A stretch of 46,561 bases of DNA. Source: a virus. The notes below the pieces were generated by a model that saw nothing but the letters and a program-made list of their open reading frames with translations, had not been told where the DNA came from and did no database searches. Every line of letters begins with the position of its first letter. Positions within the stretch are counted from its first letter, which is position 1. Of the stretch, positions 20,322 through 43,515 are shown piece by piece. The position numbers were made by a program, and so were the translations under genes. Location: positions 1 to 46,561 of the IMG/VR virus record IMGVR_UViG_3300020450_000034; one strand, 5' to 3'.

Positions 20322-21032
20322 ATGAATTCAATAATTAAATTTTATAAAAGTTTACCATTCAATAAAGTGTCTGACAAATTATATTGTAAACAAGTAAACA
20401 AATCCAAAACACCGTGGATACAATTAGATAGTTGTATAGAGGATAGCAATGATGTATTAGAATTAGGTTGTGGTACTGGATGGTTAAGTAATCGAATTGC
20501 AAATAATTATAATATTAATGTTACTGGTATAGATATATTAAAAGAAAATATAGATAATGCAAGTAAATACAAAAATAAAAATACAGAGTTTTTTGAAGAA
20601 GATATTTTAACCACTACAAGACGTGCAGATACTATAGTAAGTATTGGCGTATTACATCACATGCCTAATCAGAATATTAAAAACTTAATTAAACATAGTG
20701 TAAGCCTAGCAAACAAATATGCTTTTATTGGTTTATATTACAAACATAGTAGAGATGCCGTATTAGAATATTTTGATACTATACCAAAAGATAAAAGATA
20801 CAAACATTTTAAAAAATTAACACCTTGGATAACTGATGATGTGCAAAGTAAAAGCTGGTTCCGTGATCAATTTGAACATCCTTATGAATGTAGTGTAACA
20901 TTAGAAGATTTTAACATAGGAATTGAACATCAATGTTTTGGACACTATGACAAAAATAGAACTTTAGAACGACTTAACAATGGAGAATTTGTAAGTGGGT
21001 TTATATATGGAGTATTTAATTTAAATGATTAA
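20322..21032 (+). CDS. Class I SAM-dependent methyltransferase
   Basis: 236 aa. Motif I VLELGCGTGW (residues 45-54) binds S-adenosylmethionine. An acidic VTGIDIL segment (motif II) and IVSIGVLHHMPN (motif IV region) complete the Rossmann-type core. The C-terminal 90 residues, with KSWFRDQFEHPYE, are a substrate region I cannot assign. The substrate may be a small molecule, glycan or protein. It follows gp15 by 7 nt without a clear ribosome binding site and overlaps the Nudix gene by 8 nt. Its base composition is more AT-rich than the flanking structural genes, suggesting separate acquisition. Confidence 0.85.
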   Translation: MNSIIKFYKSLPFNKVSDKLYCKQVNKSKTPWIQLDSCIEDSNDVLELGCGTGWLSNRIANNYNINVTGIDILKENIDNASKYKNKNTEFFEEDILTTTRRADTIVSIGVLHHMPNQNIKNLIKHSVSLANKYAFIGLYYKHSRDAVLEYFDTIPKDKRYKHFKKLTPWITDDVQSKSWFRDQFEHPYECSVTLEDFNIGIEHQCFGHYDKNRTLERLNNGEFVSGFIYGVFNLND

Positions 21033-21483
21033 AGCAAGTGGTTGTTGTTTTCTTGCCTTAGACACAGGCAGAATCATGCTACAACAAAGAAGTAAAAAAG
21101 CAAGTCACCCATTAACTTGGAGTTTTTGGGGAGGCAAGAGTCATAAGCGTGAAAGACCTATTGAAACATTATTACGTGAGTGTAAGGAGGAATTAGGTCC
21201 TTTACCAGATATAGAAAAAGTTTATCCTTTGCATGAATTTATCAGTGAAGACCAAAAGTTTACATATAATACTTTTTGTGTTACAGTATTTGAAGAATTT
21301 ATTCCACAGTGCAATCATGAAAGTGCTGGTTATTGCTGGACAAACTTAGATTGCTGGCCCAAGCCCTTACACAGAGGTGCAAAAGTTGTTTTGACTAGAC
21401 CTGCAATGGTAGAAAAAATTAATACAATCTACAAAAGACAAAAAGATAAATTAGATTTGCCAAATTGGCTTGATGATTTTTAA
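21025..21483 (+). CDS. Nudix hydrolase
   Basis: 152 aa. A complete Nudix box G-x5-E-x7-RE-x2-EE-x-G is present: G37, E43, R51, E52, E55, E56, G58 (GGKSHKRERPIETLLRECKE and following). A HPLTWSFWGGK strand leads into it as in the MutT fold. Nudix enzymes hydrolyse nucleoside diphosphates linked to another moiety; T4 itself has NudE acting on ADP-ribose, NADH and diadenosine polyphosphates. This protein may clear such metabolites or nucleotide sugars; the substrate is not shown by the sequence. It is coupled to the methyltransferase and converges with the permease gene, with a 4-nt overlap of the 3' ends. Confidence 0.9.
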   Translation: MIKASGCCFLALDTGRIMLQQRSKKASHPLTWSFWGGKSHKRERPIETLLRECKEELGPLPDIEKVYPLHEFISEDQKFTYNTFCVTVFEEFIPQCNHESAGYCWTNLDCWPKPLHRGAKVVLTRPAMVEKINTIYKRQKDKLDLPNWLDDF

Positions 21484-22517
21484 AGTGTTAGAGCCGCGGC
21501 GGCTATTACTAATCCACCCCACATACCCAGTATTGTAATATAATATCTTAGTTTTGTACCAAAATATAACATACCAATAGTAACGCATTTGTGCATTGGA
21601 CTAATCAAATATCCTACAAAGTCAACTGCAAAAAACCAAGGCAAGTATGCAATACCATATATACTAGTCATTATAATCATAAGAGCTCCAAACCTACTGC
21701 TACTGCCTAGTGCAAAACTACCAGCAAAACTTATTGCAGTGAGGTACAAAAATCCACTCCAAGTATTGATATCCATGCCTGTATCACTTAAGAAAGTTTT
21801 AATAGCATCTGTATTTTGTCTTGCTAGATTGGCGGCAAATATAATTACTGCAACCCAAATAATAATTTTCCAGTCTACATATTTCAAAAGTTTTGGTATG
21901 TCAAATGTTTTTGTTACAACCATATAGTAAACAGTAAGTGATCCGAAAGCCCATAAAAAGTCTATTCCATATATAATCGCGGCTACACCAAATATATAGG
22001 GTAACAAGTATCTGGTAATTCTACTTACTTTTACTTCTTCGCCAATATCTTTAAGTTCGACATCTGTTTCTTTTACACCAAAGATTAAGTATGCTAAAAT
22101 GAAAACTACAGTTACAGCCAATAAAGGCCAAATTATTCCAATCCATTGTGCATAAGTTAATCCAAATGCCGCCATCGGAAGTATTACAGTTTTTTCTAAC
22201 GGTGACCAAAAATAGTAATGATGTGTGCTTACATAATCAATCGGGCCAAACTTTTCTCTGCCACAACAACCTTTGTCTGGTGCAAGTGATTCAAGCAAAC
22301 CAGCACTTACAGTTACTCTGCCTTTGATTGGCAGTAAACCCATAATAGCACTAACCAATGCAACTACTGCTCGTTTGCTTTTTATATTGTGTGCTAAAAA
22401 GTTAAAAGCATCACGGAACAATCCATGTTCTTTTACCATACCCGCAATCATCATTACAAATATTATTAAGAACAAGTATACTTGTCCTTTGAGTGCTAGT
22501 TCAATATATTCTATCAT
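21480..22517 (-). CDS. DUF401-like integral membrane permease
   Basis: 345 aa from the ATG at 22515-22517 (an in-frame TTG 6 nt upstream is less likely, as the ATG overlaps the previous stop as ATGA). About ten hydrophobic segments span the membrane. MGLLPIKGRVTVSAGLLESL near residues 60-80 and VGYLISPMHKCVTIGMLYFG near residue 305 resemble the two hairpin signatures of the DUF401 family, a branch of the ion-transporter (citrate/gluconate symporter) superfamily. WSPLEKTVILP and SFALGSSSRFGALMI fit the paired repeats. It would sit in the host inner membrane; the substrate is unknown. A multi-pass transporter is very unusual in a T4-like phage and suggests host origin. It is the last gene of the minus-strand accessory block. 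Confidence 0.65.
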   Translation of the reverse strand: MIEYIELALKGQVYLFLIIFVMMIAGMVKEHGLFRDAFNFLAHNIKSKRAVVALVSAIMGLLPIKGRVTVSAGLLESLAPDKGCCGREKFGPIDYVSTHHYYFWSPLEKTVILPMAAFGLTYAQWIGIIWPLLAVTVVFILAYLIFGVKETDVELKDIGEEVKVSRITRYLLPYIFGVAAIIYGIDFLWAFGSLTVYYMVVTKTFDIPKLLKYVDWKIIIWVAVIIFAANLARQNTDAIKTFLSDTGMDINTWSGFLYLTAISFAGSFALGSSSRFGALMIIMTSIYGIAYLPWFFAVDFVGYLISPMHKCVTIGMLYFGTKLRYYITILGMWGGLVIAAAALTL

Positions 22518-23215
22518 TTCCAAAATTTCCTGTATAGTTCTTTCATTTTTTGTATGTTATATACAAAGTTACTCTCCCATATGTAATGACGTTTTTCTAA
22601 CCAACGTGTGTCATTTTCATTTTTCTCTCTTACAATTAGTTCGCACGTTTGTTCAGTTATAGGAATCAAATGACACAAAGGTGTGCCTGCCTTAACTTTG
22701 CTAATATCTCCAAATCGATTCCAATACAACTGCACATTTATTTCTGTACTAACACTAGGATCTAGTATGCCTATACAACTTTCAAAATCAACATTATCAC
22801 TGTATGCAACTGGCAACATCAAAAACTTACAAGGAGCAATCAAATGCCAAGGCGTATTACATTTAATAATACTTTTGCAACTACCTAATCTATGTGGTAA
22901 AAATTTTGAAACTGTATCTGCATGTTGAATGCTTATACCTAATTTATTCAGATGTTCAGTTGGTGCTTGTAATTTTAATTGATCTCTAGTTGCTTGTACT
23001 GTAAAGTCATGCCAAGCTCTTACTACGTATCCTTGCTTGTACAGTTCACCAATACCGTTACATCTAAAAATATGTGACGAATGATTATCAGCTGATTTGT
23101 TTGCTATATAATCTTGTTTGGCTGTGCGTACCCAATTTGGTATAGCTTTGCCAATAGGTTCTATTGGCCATGTATCAAGCACTCCTGGATATGTGCAAAA
23201 AAATTGTATTTTCAA
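22514..23215 (-). CDS. Uncharacterised protein of a family common in marine phages
   Basis: 233 aa. The start is a TTG (23213-23215) overlapping the upstream stop as TTGA; no suitable ATG is nearby. It opens MKIQFFCTYPGVLD and contains NTPWHLIAPCKFLMLPVAYS and AGTPLCHLIPIT. The combined pattern (PW-x-I-x-x-P near residue 120, later GTPL-x-x-x-IP) is one I recall from uncharacterised proteins that often sit beside 2OG-Fe(II) oxygenases in marine phages and bacteria; I cannot confirm a family number. Several Cys and His residues are present but no catalytic motif is clear. Here too it directly follows an oxygenase gene, suggesting a joint role. Confidence 0.6.
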   Translation of the reverse strand: MKIQFFCTYPGVLDTWPIEPIGKAIPNWVRTAKQDYIANKSADNHSSHIFRCNGIGELYKQGYVVRAWHDFTVQATRDQLKLQAPTEHLNKLGISIQHADTVSKFLPHRLGSCKSIIKCNTPWHLIAPCKFLMLPVAYSDNVDFESCIGILDPSVSTEINVQLYWNRFGDISKVKAGTPLCHLIPITEQTCELIVREKNENDTRWLEKRHYIWESNFVYNIQKMKELYRKFWK

Positions 23216-23814
23216 CTTATGTGTCTCGGTGTTTGAAATCTTATATTGAATGCCATGTTTATTCTCTGCTGGTTGCTTGTATTTGTATCAGTTTCATGTG
23301 GCATCCAGGCGGGCCATACAATTAAATCTCCATCTTCTGGTTCATATGCAAACTTGTTCATAAACGGTGCATGTGGATGACAACTTTCTGTTACGTTCAT
23401 AGGATTGTGCCACGTAATATCGCCTGTGTCTTTACCTTGCAAGTAATAAACAGCAACATAGTGGTGCAGTCTATGATCATGCATTGCATTTCTACTGCCT
23501 ATGTCATTTATATTAGTCCAATAAGTTATTTCAGGAGGTCCATAATTTCTAACTTTTTGGTCATAACTTGGATCTAATTCTAAATAATAATCTATTGCAT
23601 TGTTGACACTGTCTCGGATATGTTCCATGAGCCAGACTATATCTGGATAATTGAATTCGTGCCTCCAACAGCCATCTTTAGTAAAATCCAAACCTTCACT
23701 AATACATTTAGTCTTTACATCTTGTGCAATATCTATCAGCTCTTTACGCTGAGCATCTGTGCCTATGTTGTTTTTAATAAAGACGTCAGCTTGTAATAGT
23801 TTCAGTACTTTCAT
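23212..23814 (-). CDS. 2-oxoglutarate/Fe(II)-dependent oxygenase
   Basis: 200 aa. The iron-binding region AMHDHRLHHYVAVYYL (H112 and H114), the distal H173 in WPAWMPHET and R184 in NQQRINMAFNIRF fit the double-stranded beta-helix 2OG-Fe(II) oxygenases of the short phage type (the group with the N-x-H-x-H...YYL signature). Such enzymes hydroxylate proteins, nucleic acids or small molecules using O2 and 2-oxoglutarate. It overlaps the U32-like/methyltransferase gene by 29 nt and the next gene by 4 nt. The fold call is good; the substrate is unknown. Confidence 0.8.
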   Translation of the reverse strand: MKVLKLLQADVFIKNNIGTDAQRKELIDIAQDVKTKCISEGLDFTKDGCWRHEFNYPDIVWLMEHIRDSVNNAIDYYLELDPSYDQKVRNYGPPEITYWTNINDIGSRNAMHDHRLHHYVAVYYLQGKDTGDITWHNPMNVTESCHPHAPFMNKFAYEPEDGDLIVWPAWMPHETDTNTSNQQRINMAFNIRFQTPRHIS

Positions 23815-25417
23815 TTTTAGTTACCACTAATAAGTATAATCCATTCCACCACTTGGTAGAATCTTCTACTGAATTAAGGATCATTCTACTAAACTTAACA
23901 TCAAATTCAGTATTTGTCAAGCCTTGAAGTGCACCACTTACTACGCCTTCCCAATTGGCATCATCAAATACAAGTATACTTGTATCAGCAAAATAATTTT
24001 TATAGTGTTTGACTGCATCAATTACACTTTGTTCATCATGAGGTCCATCGTAGAAAAACAAATCATACTTGTCTTCAAGTTGTACTGCAAACAAGTCTTC
24101 ATCATGCACAGTAATATTGTTGTAGTTTTTTACATTGCTTAAAAATATATCTTTATTGTTGTCTGGTAATTCAAATGCTCCTGATTCAGGCTGTATACTG
24201 TCCTGCCAATTATCCACGCAAGTAGTTGGTACACCCGCATCTAATACACTTACTGCACTACTGCCCATTGCTGTACCTATTTCCAAATAGTTTGTACTAA
24301 TACCAGCAAGACTGTTTAGTAATTTTTTGACTCTTGGGCTTGTTAATCCTTGTATACTATTATCATAATCACTGTTTACATGGTCGACTAATATATCTGC
24401 AACTTTGCTGACTGTAGGATTTATTGTAAGATTGCTTTTGCTTTGATATACTTTGTCACAAAAATTACAATCCCAACAATCAAACTTACAAGTTTTTATA
24501 ATTTTTCGCCATGCATCAATTGGTCTATTTTCTAATGTATTGTCTTGTAAATATTGATTAAAAGTATCAAACAATATTTCTTTTCCTTGGGCAAAGTTTT
24601 CTACTATACGCATTGTTTCATAAAATCTTTGTACATTTTCTCTACCATGCATTTTAAAAACATCTACTACATTAAGCAAATCAATCCAATCTTCTCTCCA
24701 AGGTGGAATGTTTGCTTGCTTCAGAGGTGTAGCAGGATCTTGAACGTCCCATTTTGCACAACTTACTCTACTAATAGGATCATTGAAATATTGCGGATTG
24801 TCTTTTCTATTGTTGTTGTATTCAAAATGTTCTTTCATCATACTACAACCACCGTGACATCCTTCGTTTGCTAGTAAAGCAATTTTTAAATTATACTTGT
24901 CAGCGGCTTTGCGTATACGTTCTAATGTCTCTCTATCACGCATTAGGTCTCTGTGTATGTTTACATAATGAAATCCTTCTTTACCTAAATTTGCAACATC
25001 TTTAGCAGTTTCTGGTTGTCGTAAAATTGTGTTTTTAATTAACAGTTCAGGAAATTGTTTTTGTATTTGTCCTGTTGCAACCCAATGTGTATGAGGAATA
25101 GTAACACTCCTAATTCCTGCATCATATAGAACTTGGAAGTTTGTAATAAAAATATCTAAGTTTTGTTGTGTAACAGGAACCAATGTATTATTAAAAGTTG
25201 CACTCATTCTTATGCCTGTAGCATCTTGCAATTTTAATGCTACGTCTATCAAGTCCATTGGATTTTCAAATACATCACCCATTGCATCCTGTTCAAAAGG
25301 AGGCATTCTACAAGTAAAGTAGATATCATATATGTGTTGTTTGTGTTTCAAACAAAACTCATAAAAGTGATTCAACTGAATATTATTGAGCTTTGGATTT
25401 AATGGTATTGAGAACAT
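23786..25417 (-). CDS. Fusion protein: U32-like Fe-S TIM-barrel domain plus SAM methyltransferase
   Basis: 543 aa. Residues about 1-325 resemble U32-family proteins: a barrel with HYVNIHRDL and the signature LLANEGCHGGCSMMKEHFEY (C187, C191), then C220 and a cluster C310, C314, C317, C320. Bacterial U32 proteins (UbiU/UbiV, RlhA, TrhP) hold a 4Fe-4S cluster on four Cys and support O2-independent hydroxylations. Residues about 335-543 are a class I methyltransferase: LEIGTAMGSS (378-387), FFYDGPHDEQSV (454-465), ILVFDDANW (481-489), the methyltransferase-24-type pattern. One polypeptide would thus combine hydroxylation-type and methylation chemistry. It is coupled to the flanking genes by stop/start overlap. 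The U32 call is from motif spacing and is less sure than the methyltransferase. Confidence 0.7.
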   Translation of the reverse strand: MFSIPLNPKLNNIQLNHFYEFCLKHKQHIYDIYFTCRMPPFEQDAMGDVFENPMDLIDVALKLQDATGIRMSATFNNTLVPVTQQNLDIFITNFQVLYDAGIRSVTIPHTHWVATGQIQKQFPELLIKNTILRQPETAKDVANLGKEGFHYVNIHRDLMRDRETLERIRKAADKYNLKIALLANEGCHGGCSMMKEHFEYNNNRKDNPQYFNDPISRVSCAKWDVQDPATPLKQANIPPWREDWIDLLNVVDVFKMHGRENVQRFYETMRIVENFAQGKEILFDTFNQYLQDNTLENRPIDAWRKIIKTCKFDCWDCNFCDKVYQSKSNLTINPTVSKVADILVDHVNSDYDNSIQGLTSPRVKKLLNSLAGISTNYLEIGTAMGSSAVSVLDAGVPTTCVDNWQDSIQPESGAFELPDNNKDIFLSNVKNYNNITVHDEDLFAVQLEDKYDLFFYDGPHDEQSVIDAVKHYKNYFADTSILVFDDANWEGVVSGALQGLTNTEFDVKFSRMILNSVEDSTKWWNGLYLLVVTKNESTETITS

Positions 25418-26142
25418 TAAAGATTGTAAGTTGGGTCAGGCGATTCGCCAAGTTCTTCAAGCATAGGAAATGGTGCATTTATACCAAAACGTTTATGATA
25501 TACTAGATAGCATTTGGTAATTGTATTTGCTTCTTTAATTTCTTTTTCTACAGTTTGTTTTTTTCCTAATAAATCTGCAACCTGAATGTTATGTGCATCT
25601 ATTGCATCTAATACTTTGTCAGCCATTTCACTTAAAGTGATACCTCTTGCTACAGATAGTGTGTTAAGTAACGGACAACTTGCAGAACCATTGGCTTTGA
25701 ATGCTTGTGCTTCGGCTTTTTGTTGAGCCCAACTATCTCCTTCTAGTTTGTTAGGTGGTAAGTTTAGTTTGTCAAATCTGCTGTCATATACCTTATCAAG
25801 TTTTTTACGCATCACTACTTGCATAAATTTTACTGCGTTTACTTTGTCTTCATCTGTAAGTTCATATTTTACTTTTGTATAATCATCTTCAGTACTTGCA
25901 ACTACTTGAAGTATTTCATTTTGTTGAGTTGCTTTTCTAACACTTACTTTTCCATTCCATCCAGATGCTAACATATATGCTTTTGCTACACTTTCTTCTA
26001 ATACAGTTGCTCCTATATGATGCCAATTTATAATATCAGTGTGTGTATCTGGAATAAGTCCTATGCCAAACTCTTGATATCTACCTATAACTTGTATAGG
26101 ACCTAGAGTTCTTTGATCTTTCATTTCAAATAGTATATACAT
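25417..26142 (-). CDS. DUF4376-like protein, possible tail-fibre assembly factor
   Basis: 241 aa. The region about residues 135-200 (SWAQQKAEAQAFKANG, CPLLNTLSVARGI, LSEMADKVLDAI, DLLGKKQTVEKEI) matches the DUF4376 pattern found at the end of many phage tail-fibre assembly chaperones. The N-terminal 130 residues are not recognised. It lies at the downstream end of the fibre operon, and its stop overlaps the start of the U32-like fusion gene. An AAAGGAC ribosome binding site precedes the ATG. A chaperone role for the fibre or adhesin genes upstream is likely but inferred. Confidence 0.6.
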   Translation of the reverse strand: MYILFEMKDQRTLGPIQVIGRYQEFGIGLIPDTHTDIINWHHIGATVLEESVAKAYMLASGWNGKVSVRKATQQNEILQVVASTEDDYTKVKYELTDEDKVNAVKFMQVVMRKKLDKVYDSRFDKLNLPPNKLEGDSWAQQKAEAQAFKANGSASCPLLNTLSVARGITLSEMADKVLDAIDAHNIQVADLLGKKQTVEKEIKEANTITKCYLVYHKRFGINAPFPMLEELGESPDPTYNL

Positions 26143-26143
26143 T

Positions 26144-26917
26144 TTAGTCCTTTGTCAACCCTAATTGTTTAATCATTTCATGTTGATCAATACCATTTTC
26201 AAGTCTTTTTACACTTTCATCTCTAATATAATTCATTCTGCTTTCATTTGTAATAGCAATATCCGCGGCATGTTGAAGTGCATTGCGTTGATCTTCTTTG
26301 TTTAACATTACAATACTATCCATGTTACCCACACCTACTCTACCGTAAGCAATCATATCCATTGCGGCTTGCTTGCCTAATCTTTGCACCCAATATTCAC
26401 GTTCTAATTCTTCGCTGATTTCAGGATCGTATACAGCATCTATTAGTCTCATTCCATTTGGTAGTTTTCCGTATTCACTTTGATCTATAGCTTCAATCAG
26501 TTGTGCATACATCAAACGTTCTTCTCTAGCATTTGTTAATTGACGTTTGTAATTTTTTCTATTGCGTACTTTGTGTTTGTGTTCTATTTTAATGCGTCTA
26601 AGATCAAATGGATCTTGTTCAGTTTCCATTTTTGCTTCTAGTTCATCAATTTCAACATCGTTCATTTCAATGTCATACTCTTGTTTGATAATAAGTTCTT
26701 CTCTACTGTTAAGTTCTAAAAAGTATTGTTTCACAGCACCATATGGTGAAATATTAGCATGTCCAACAAAATGTTTTGCTTTGAATGCTGGCATACGCCA
26801 ACTTTTGTTCATACCAATTGCTACAAGTTTTCTTTGATTTTCTGACAGTTCGTCATGTACACTGTCTAGATTTTCATGTGTAATAATTGTTACTGCTTTA
26901 GTTTCTTTGAAATCCAT
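26144..26917 (-). CDS. Charged helical protein of unknown function
   Basis: 257 aa from the ATG at 26915-26917, which overlaps the stop of the adhesin-like gene as TAATG and has GGAGAGGAAACTA before it. A TTG 15 nt upstream is in frame but less likely. Residues about 75-160 are a long charged helix with coiled-coil character (EIDELEAKMETEQD, then KHKVRNRKNYKRQL). No known motif is recognised. The phrase KAKHFVGHANISPYGAVKQY near residue 50 is the most distinctive stretch. The context, between a putative adhesin and a DUF4376-like factor, suggests a fibre-related or structural role. Confidence 0.6.
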   Translation of the reverse strand: MDFKETKAVTIITHENLDSVHDELSENQRKLVAIGMNKSWRMPAFKAKHFVGHANISPYGAVKQYFLELNSREELIIKQEYDIEMNDVEIDELEAKMETEQDPFDLRRIKIEHKHKVRNRKNYKRQLTNAREERLMYAQLIEAIDQSEYGKLPNGMRLIDAVYDPEISEELEREYWVQRLGKQAAMDMIAYGRVGVGNMDSIVMLNKEDQRNALQHAADIAITNESRMNYIRDESVKRLENGIDQHEMIKQLGLTKD

Positions 26918-27981
26918 TAGTTTCCTCTCCAATGCATATGTCCGCTACTACTCCCAGGTACTGCGGTTCTTACACTACCTGCTCCTAATTCATAGCCACT
27001 ATTTGTGGCATAATAAAATTTGTGTCCTCTGTTGTTTTGTGCGCCATCATATGTACCAGCCGCATACTGCCAATCCTGCCCCATGTCGAAGTTTTCTTCA
27101 CCGGTGTTAGGCATTGGCTTTGTGCAGTTGCCAGTCACTGTATCTGTTGTATAACTATATATCCTAAAATTATAACCGTTGTTATAGCTTCCTTCGTTAC
27201 CACCATAGCCTTTATCATGCTTACTGCTAATTCCTTTTTGCTGACTGTTTATTCCTGGTTGTCCTGTTGGTACACTAAATGAACCAGCAGTACTGCTTGT
27301 GCTAGTTGGAAAAGAAAGTTTTTGTCTATTGTTTGTTGCATACCACCAAAGACCAGAATTTTCACTGCTATGACTTGCACCACCTTCTTGCATACTATCA
27401 CCACCACTTGCTGAACTTACACTTTGAGAGGATGTATACATACTGTCAGTTGCTAAATTCAATACATCAACATCTGTTGTACCAGTATTTCCTGCAATAA
27501 TCCAAGCCATGTAATGTTCTCTGAATATAGTAGCACTGTCATTTCTACTGTGTCGCATAGTAGGACCAGCGGCGCCTGTTAACTGCCATAAATTATATTT
27601 TACTGTAGATGTAGTATCACCAGGCCATGTTCCGTCTACACCAAACACATATCCTTGTGTCAAACTGCATGCCCCACTTACATAAGCACCTGCGGCTGTA
27701 AGTACATTTCCTCTGTTTACCATAATATCTGTGGCATGACTCATTTCTTCAACGTTTTGCCATGGCACACTGTCTTTATATCCACCAGCAACAAAACCTG
27801 TTGTAATAACATGTCTCAGCAAAAAATCTGTATCTCTGTTTACAACATTCCAACGATTGGCGTCCCACAGTTTCATTTCTTTTGTAGTGGTATCCCAATA
27901 AACTTGACCTGCTACTGGACTACTTGGAGCACTACTAAGTTGCTGTATTTTTATTCCTGCGCCACCTATCTCAGTTGCCAT
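26917..27981 (-). CDS. Putative receptor-binding adhesin / fibre tip protein
   Basis: 354 aa. Residues about 12-48 are the short surface module (LSSAPSSPVAGQVYWDTTT, then MKLWDANRWNVV). The remainder is rich in Gly, Ser, Thr, Asn, Trp and Tyr, with repeated short strands (SLTQGYVFGVDGTWPGDTTS, SENSGLWWYATNNRQ, NSGYELGAGSV), compatible with a beta-propeller or beta-helix surface domain. It starts inside the end of the large S74 fibre gene (11-nt overlap), and the AAGGAG site lies within that gene's last codons. Position at the end of the fibre operon fits a distal adhesin. No fold is certain. Confidence 0.6.
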   Translation of the reverse strand: MATEIGGAGIKIQQLSSAPSSPVAGQVYWDTTTKEMKLWDANRWNVVNRDTDFLLRHVITTGFVAGGYKDSVPWQNVEEMSHATDIMVNRGNVLTAAGAYVSGACSLTQGYVFGVDGTWPGDTTSTVKYNLWQLTGAAGPTMRHSRNDSATIFREHYMAWIIAGNTGTTDVDVLNLATDSMYTSSQSVSSASGGDSMQEGGASHSSENSGLWWYATNNRQKLSFPTSTSSTAGSFSVPTGQPGINSQQKGISSKHDKGYGGNEGSYNNGYNFRIYSYTTDTVTGNCTKPMPNTGEENFDMGQDWQYAAGTYDGAQNNRGHKFYYATNSGYELGAGSVRTAVPGSSSGHMHWRGN

Positions 27982-43484: not shown

Positions 43485-43514
43485 ATGTATACCTTATCTG
43501 CTATACATATTTAT
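43482..43514 (-). repeat. Late leader repeat, copy 3 (hairpin over the start codon)
   Basis: Third identical 33-nt unit, upstream of the 968-aa fibre. The sequence beyond the unit diverges immediately, so identity is confined to the regulatory element. Confidence 0.85.
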
Positions 43515-43515
43515 A
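43508..43515 (-). promoter_or_regulatory. T4-type late promoter box (968-aa fibre)
   Basis: Perfect TATAAATA on the minus strand, overlapping the 5' arm of leader copy 3. Confidence 0.78.

Follow-up and report, generated by a model that had tools for sequence, protein, structure and literature searches.

The DNA analyzed here is a virus record of IMG/VR with a length of 46,561 bases (37% G+C; the full length of this stretch is referred to as the window), and it encodes structural genes of a T4-like myovirus. One of its genes (P0001) starts with an ATG and encodes a protein of 543 aa, and the plus strand opposite this gene is closed by many stops. Results of profile and fold comparisons indicated that the protein combines an N-terminal U32-like domain with a C-terminal class I methyltransferase, and we consider the identities of both domains to be very probable. 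The features of the gene and of its neighborhood are given in Table 1.

Table 1. Positions of the fusion gene, its domains, its motifs and its neighbors in the window.
Feature	Position	Strand	Evidence or remark
U32-like / methyltransferase fusion gene (P0001)	23786..25417	(-)	AlphaFold2 mean pLDDT 87, pTM 0.79
N-terminal U32-like TIM-barrel domain and Cys-rich tail, residues 1-327	24437..25417	(-)	Foldseek, profile chain
Class I methyltransferase domain, C-terminal, residues about 355-536	23810..24355	(-)	PF13578, YrrM/TrmR 5zw3 profile match, Foldseek
C187-x3-C191 (NEGCxGGC)	24845..24859	(-)	aligned with TrhP C170/C177 and UbiU C169/C176
C220, invariant	24758..24760	(-)	candidate third cluster ligand
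K255-M-H-G-R259	24641..24655	(-)	aligned with KIEGR of canonical U32 proteins
C310-x3-C314-x2-C317-x2-C320 cluster	24458..24490	(-)	after the barrel
AdoMet-binding loop E379-I-G-T-A-M-G385	24263..24283	(-)
D457 ... D485-D486, invariant	23960..24049	(-)	where the metal site of catechol-OMT-type enzymes lies
P0005, 241 aa (phrog_1604), conserved upstream partner	25417..26142	(-)	stop codon overlaps the fusion-gene ATG by one base
P0006, 262 aa (phrog_1409), conserved partner	26144..26932	(-)
P0007, 354 aa (phrog_1417), fibre-like repeat protein	26917..27981	(-)	candidate substrate
Tail fibre protein, 1578 aa	27971..32707	(-)	upstream in the same gene series
2OG-Fe(II) oxygenase	23212..23814	(-)	next gene downstream, 29-base overlap with the fusion gene

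A tblastn search recovered homologues of the fusion protein in 123 annotated phage records, 121 of them with at least 80% coverage, and identity was 42-44% among the matches listed. All 123 records are named as Synechococcus or Prochlorococcus phages or cyanophages. In every record examined the gene is annotated as hypothetical, and in the Syn33 and P-SSM4 records it carries the cyanophage name 'T4-GC 354'. Residues 46-534 matched PHROG 1458 (function unknown), and relatives are encoded in 443 IMG/VR stretches, while none was found on the plasmids searched. The fusion gene is a common uncharacterised cyanophage gene and not the rarity of one phage. Across 83 aligned phage homologues, the N-terminal half was better conserved than the methyltransferase. 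Two further matches (L165 and L166), on contigs of archaeal and Dehalococcoidia metagenome bins, were excluded, since both contigs are probably of phage origin and were binned into these genomes; L166 is probably a misbinned phage because tail-like genes crowd around its fusion gene. Another match (L173) was due to chance, being an open frame within an unrelated 991-aa protein.

The genes upstream of the fusion gene were conserved as well. The direct upstream neighbor was P0005 or P0006 in 148 of the 156 loci with a neighbor in view, and the second was one of these two genes in 141 of 149 loci, with their order swapped between phage groups. When 164 phage loci were examined, a fibre-like protein of the P0007 family stood at position -3 in 102 of them, and a 2OG oxygenase followed the fusion gene immediately in 55. 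The cyanophage homologue of P0006 was found in 123 phage records, as was the fusion gene, and the organisms break down identically; the two sets of 123 were equated from their tallies and not record by record. P0005 homologues occurred in 117, versus at least 439 cyanophage records for the neck-protein gene. By these counts, the fusion gene, P0005 and P0006 travel together, as one unit, in some of the cyanophages. Pfam searches with P0005, P0006, P0007 and their relatives revealed no function. A region of P0006 (W181xxR184xxK187Q188) is highly conserved, as is the C terminus of the P0007 family (E295, G301, Q315-N317 and S345-S346), which is a candidate target region.

The C-terminal half had been described in a sequence-only reading as a complete class I methyltransferase, and our results agree with this description. 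Pfam Methyltransf_24 (PF13578) matched residues 378-486 (E=1.6e-10), so that the protein has both the ExGxxxG loop and the domain profile of class I AdoMet methyltransferases, and E379, G381, G385, D402, D457, D485 and D486 were invariant in a set of 48 sequences. D457, D485 and D486 align with the D...DN of YrrM and are candidates for a role in metal binding. A family profile compared with all PDB sequences gave two matches only, YrrM (5zw3/5zw4, E 2.2e-4) and then the O-methyltransferase 2hnk. YrrM is TrmR, which the sequence-only reading had named as a functional partner of U32 proteins, and it is thus the closest solved sequence relative of the domain, though a weak one. The two share the class I fold and the Asp residues at the metal-site positions, but the phage domain has D-D-A-N in place of the D-N of TrmR and, unlike TrmR, a C-terminal E...WWN motif that shows no variation across the phage family. 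Given the weakness of the TrmR match, the domain may belong to the wider catechol-OMT-type group.

A similar arrangement of Asp residues is known from sugar enzymes such as NovP and TylF. A conceivable function for the fusion protein is O-methylation of a glycan or small molecule, in which the methyltransferase would act on a sugar (macrocin-OMT type) and the U32-like domain would oxidise or otherwise alter this sugar, for tail or surface glycans. The D...DD site and the Methyltransf_24 match are consistent with such a function, as are viral fold matches, among them a macrocin O-methyltransferase and proteins of the glycosyltransferase-methyltransferase kind. However, no gene of the conserved cassette was recognised as a sugar-nucleotide or glycosyltransferase gene, and the best PDB sequence match was to TrmR and not to a sugar enzyme. 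We consider sugar modification of this kind unlikely.

The N-terminal half was assigned to no named family by Pfam, NCBIfam or PHROGs. The fusion protein gave no direct Pfam match to PF01136 (Peptidase_U32) over the gathering score, nor did anything else in the window, and the sole match of the phage profile for this half among PDB sequences was Cas5, a chance match (E 1.2). When the phage profile alone was aligned with canonical U32 proteins (hhalign), the result was not significant (7-36%). Intermediates were therefore sought. A profile built from ten phage N-terminal domains was searched against 201 genomes of the Chloroflexota, the phylum of a Dehalococcoidia genome bin (G001), and it matched cellular proteins of this phylum with E values between 1e-26 and 1e-28, and one, L172, at 3e-11. 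L172 in turn matched Peptidase_U32 at 1.2e-15 and the solved U32 protein 5d88 at 1.2e-12.

Profile-profile comparisons gave 99.8% and 98.8% for the phage family versus two cellular groups and 99.2% for the second of these groups versus canonical U32 proteins, while ten column-shuffled controls of this last step reached at most 0.22%. The joint family aligned with canonical U32 proteins, including E. coli TrhP, UbiU and RlhA, at 98.6% (hhalign, E 1.5e-15). Homology to the U32 superfamily (PF01136) was thus found through intermediates, and the chain from the phage family by way of uncharacterised Chloroflexota and archaeal proteins of 380-440 aa to canonical U32 proteins provides good support for the N-terminal domain being a divergent U32 relative. 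Since the phage profile alone did not align significantly with canonical members, this kinship is distant and depends on the intermediates.

AlphaFold2 models were built, from phage sequences only, for the whole protein (Table 1) and for the N-terminal domain alone (pLDDT 83, pTM 0.83; the alignment for the domain model took in one row from L166, the probably misbinned phage contig). The top PDB match of the domain model in Foldseek was 5d88, the U32 protein Mk0906 (E 2.4e-6, TM 0.68 by target length), followed by the next-best TIM barrel at E 3.9e-5, and 5d88 was also recovered with the full-length model. The predicted fold is therefore U32-like, as the sequence-only reading had supposed, and not unrelated to this superfamily. 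A 269-aa 'Peptidase' of Escherichia phage OLB35 (BFVD A0A3G3MCS7) also matched the model in fold (TM 0.73 by target length), hinting at further phage U32 proteins.

The cysteines of this half (C187, C191, C220, C310, C314, C317 and C320) lie exactly where they had first been read, with the spacing C187x3C191x28C220x89C310x3Cx2Cx2C. All seven are identical in the 83 aligned phage homologues and in the set of 48 sequences, which includes more distant ones. Because they are invariant in phage homologues and kept in nearly all of the cellular relatives examined, their presence is not due to chance. UbiU and UbiV each bind one [4Fe-4S] cluster via four cysteines, and CX6CX15CX3/4C is the recurrent motif of U32 oxidases (PMC6747719; PMC11574389). 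Like TrhP, RlhA and UbiU, the phage domain has a TIM-barrel fold, and it aligns with them at the first two cluster cysteines and at the KxxGR motif (Table 1), with C169/C176 of RlhA likewise falling exactly on C187/C191. In contrast to these proteins, it has seven cysteines versus four, is fused to a methyltransferase and is encoded by a phage. The four-Cys motif itself is absent from the fusion protein, only its first two cysteines being aligned, and the alignment placed no counterpart of the remaining canonical cysteines.

Also absent is the Glu that is essential for hydroxylation in TrhP (E162) and RlhA (E161) (PMC6599085), the aligned residue being A180. With seven invariant cysteines instead of four and the essential Glu missing, the fusion protein is, by its sequence, not a canonical U32 oxidase. 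The homology and the fold of the proposed U32-like half were thus borne out, while the four-Cys motif and the essential Glu of U32 oxidases were not found in it. The conserved cysteines and the U32 kinship suggest that the N-terminal domain probably binds Fe-S, and the seven cysteines could ligate a first cluster and another one, or a pair of clusters of which one has an open iron. Radical SAM chemistry was considered for the CX3CX2C segment and rejected, as C310-C317 come after the barrel and not at its start, and no Pfam match was obtained.

A wider search covered 400 genomes of the phylum of G001, of which 15 had matches, and 293 genomes of the phylum of an archaeal genome bin (G002), of which 14 did; each number includes one probably misbinned phage contig, and closer cellular relatives may lie outside these phyla. 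The seven-Cys U32-like proteins of these two phyla have mostly 355-440 aa. The pattern Cx3C...C...Cx3-4Cx2Cx2C was kept with few exceptions in the cellular relatives examined, one protein (L212) being without one of the seven. These proteins are the nearest cellular relatives of the N-terminal domain that we found and share its seven cysteines, but those examined differ from the fusion protein in having no methyltransferase domain and in their gene neighborhoods. The first Chloroflexota group comprises six loci, and in three of these the U32-like gene has a methyltransferase gene beside it (two are Methyltransf_2 by profile, the third a methyltransferase by sequence likeness), which is an independent pairing. 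As read from the sequences, this group (L205-L210) lies near genes for Tat-exported reductive-dehalogenase-like proteins, and the second seven-Cys group (L211-L215) lies beside FabF/FabG/acyl-carrier-protein-like or AMP-ligase-like genes. No function was found for the seven-Cys U32 clade.

The seven-Cys clade might perform a chemistry of its own, such as reductive or radical Fe-S catalysis, with the methyltransferase acting separately; C310-C320 might then, for instance, hold a second cluster, and C187/C191/C220 one with an open iron. The absence of the four-Cys motif and of the catalytic Glu, the retention of seven cysteines across phages, Chloroflexota and archaea, and the location of the cellular relatives beside apparently unrelated pathways agree with a separate chemistry. 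On the other hand, characterised U32 oxidases hydroxylate (PMC11574389), and the pairing of U32 proteins with O-methyltransferases recurs, so that we regard a chemistry other than hydroxylation as rather unlikely.

We hypothesize that the N-terminal domain, as a divergent Fe-S-binding U32 domain, oxidises and most likely hydroxylates a substrate, and that the fused methyltransferase, of catechol-OMT/TrmR type, subsequently transfers a methyl group from AdoMet to the oxygen so introduced. Because the four-Cys motif and the essential Glu are absent, we infer hydroxylation from kinship, and oxidation or hydroxylation by this domain seems to us evenly balanced. Sequential O-methylation would follow if hydroxylation occurs. 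The substrate would most likely be a virion component encoded in the same cassette, either the fibre-like protein P0007 or a glycan attached to it, and P0005 and P0006 would act as partners or chaperones. Synteny is no proof of a substrate, and given the cassette we see roughly even chances that the substrate is a virion or tail component. As a joint claim with positively linked parts, a bifunctional enzyme that hydroxylates and then O-methylates a virion or tail component during assembly is our preferred but tentative proposal, to which we give less than even chances. The narrower proposal of a single-chain methoxylase, whose seven-Cys U32 domain would hydroxylate and whose methyltransferase would O-methylate a residue or a glycan on the tail fibre of the phage itself, is rather unlikely. 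Since the hosts are oxygenic, an O2-independent hydroxylase is not obviously needed.

Hydroxylation followed by O-methylation has precedents in cells. In B. subtilis, TrmR (YrrM), a tRNA ho5U34 O-methyltransferase, methylates the 5-hydroxyuridine produced by the U32 proteins TrhP1 and TrhP2, which are encoded in the same operon (PMC6599085). U32 proteins and a COMT-type methyltransferase thus act in sequence, but there they are products of separate genes and the U32 members belong to studied subfamilies. Fusions of trmR to yceA/trhO, the gene of the other tRNA hydroxylase, occur in two oomycetes and a diatom (PMC6599085). These Phytophthora and Phaeodactylum fusions resemble the phage protein in joining a hydroxylase and the following O-methyltransferase in one polypeptide and differ from it in that their hydroxylase is TrhO (YceA) and not a U32 protein.

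With this operon and these fusions as models, the phage protein might make 5-methoxypyrimidine in host or phage tRNA or rRNA, replacing TrhP plus TrmR. Such RNA modification would suit the kinship of its domains to TrhP/RlhA and to YrrM/TrmR, but the gene lies within a tail-fibre series, the window has no tRNA gene, the Glu essential in TrhP/RlhA is missing, and no RNA-binding domain was recognised in scans of the family; we judge it distinctly improbable. The sequence-only reading had proposed a joint hydroxylated and methylated product on RNA or a small molecule. Both domains and the likeness to TrmR were borne out, and the hydroxylation step would follow from kinship; the tail-fibre neighborhood favors a virion or tail substrate over RNA or a free small molecule.

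Our searches of the open-access literature yielded no paper linking U32 proteins to cyanophages or to phage auxiliary genes, in line with the initial impression that no phage enzyme of this kind had been described. The parts are of known kinds; we found no earlier description of their combination, of the seven-Cys clade or of the phage cassette. Our analysis provides a concrete hypothesis for a common marine-cyanophage gene that is hypothetical in the records examined, and it delimits a seven-Cys U32 branch in bacteria, archaea and phages that lies outside the four-Cys description of U32 oxidases. If the substrate is indeed a tail component, these phages would use an Fe-S enzyme to modify their receptor-binding parts chemically, which would bear on host recognition in the ocean. 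If the protein is such a tail-fibre methoxylase, this would be the first known U32 chemistry on a virion protein and the first role assigned to the seven-Cys U32 clade.

Other genes and sites of the window were noted. In the tail-gene series, positions 21480-22523 encode a membrane protein distantly like TIGR00529 and citrate-transporter-type permeases, and relatives are present at 57 of the phage loci studied. On the plus strand, a second class I methyltransferase gene, followed by that of a NUDIX hydrolase, occupies positions 20322-21483. The T4-late-promoter-like sequence TATAAATA occurs at five sites, all on the minus strand (including 43508-43515), a number not above chance; one of these sites precedes, by about 24 bases, a 968-aa ORF, the first of the fibre series.
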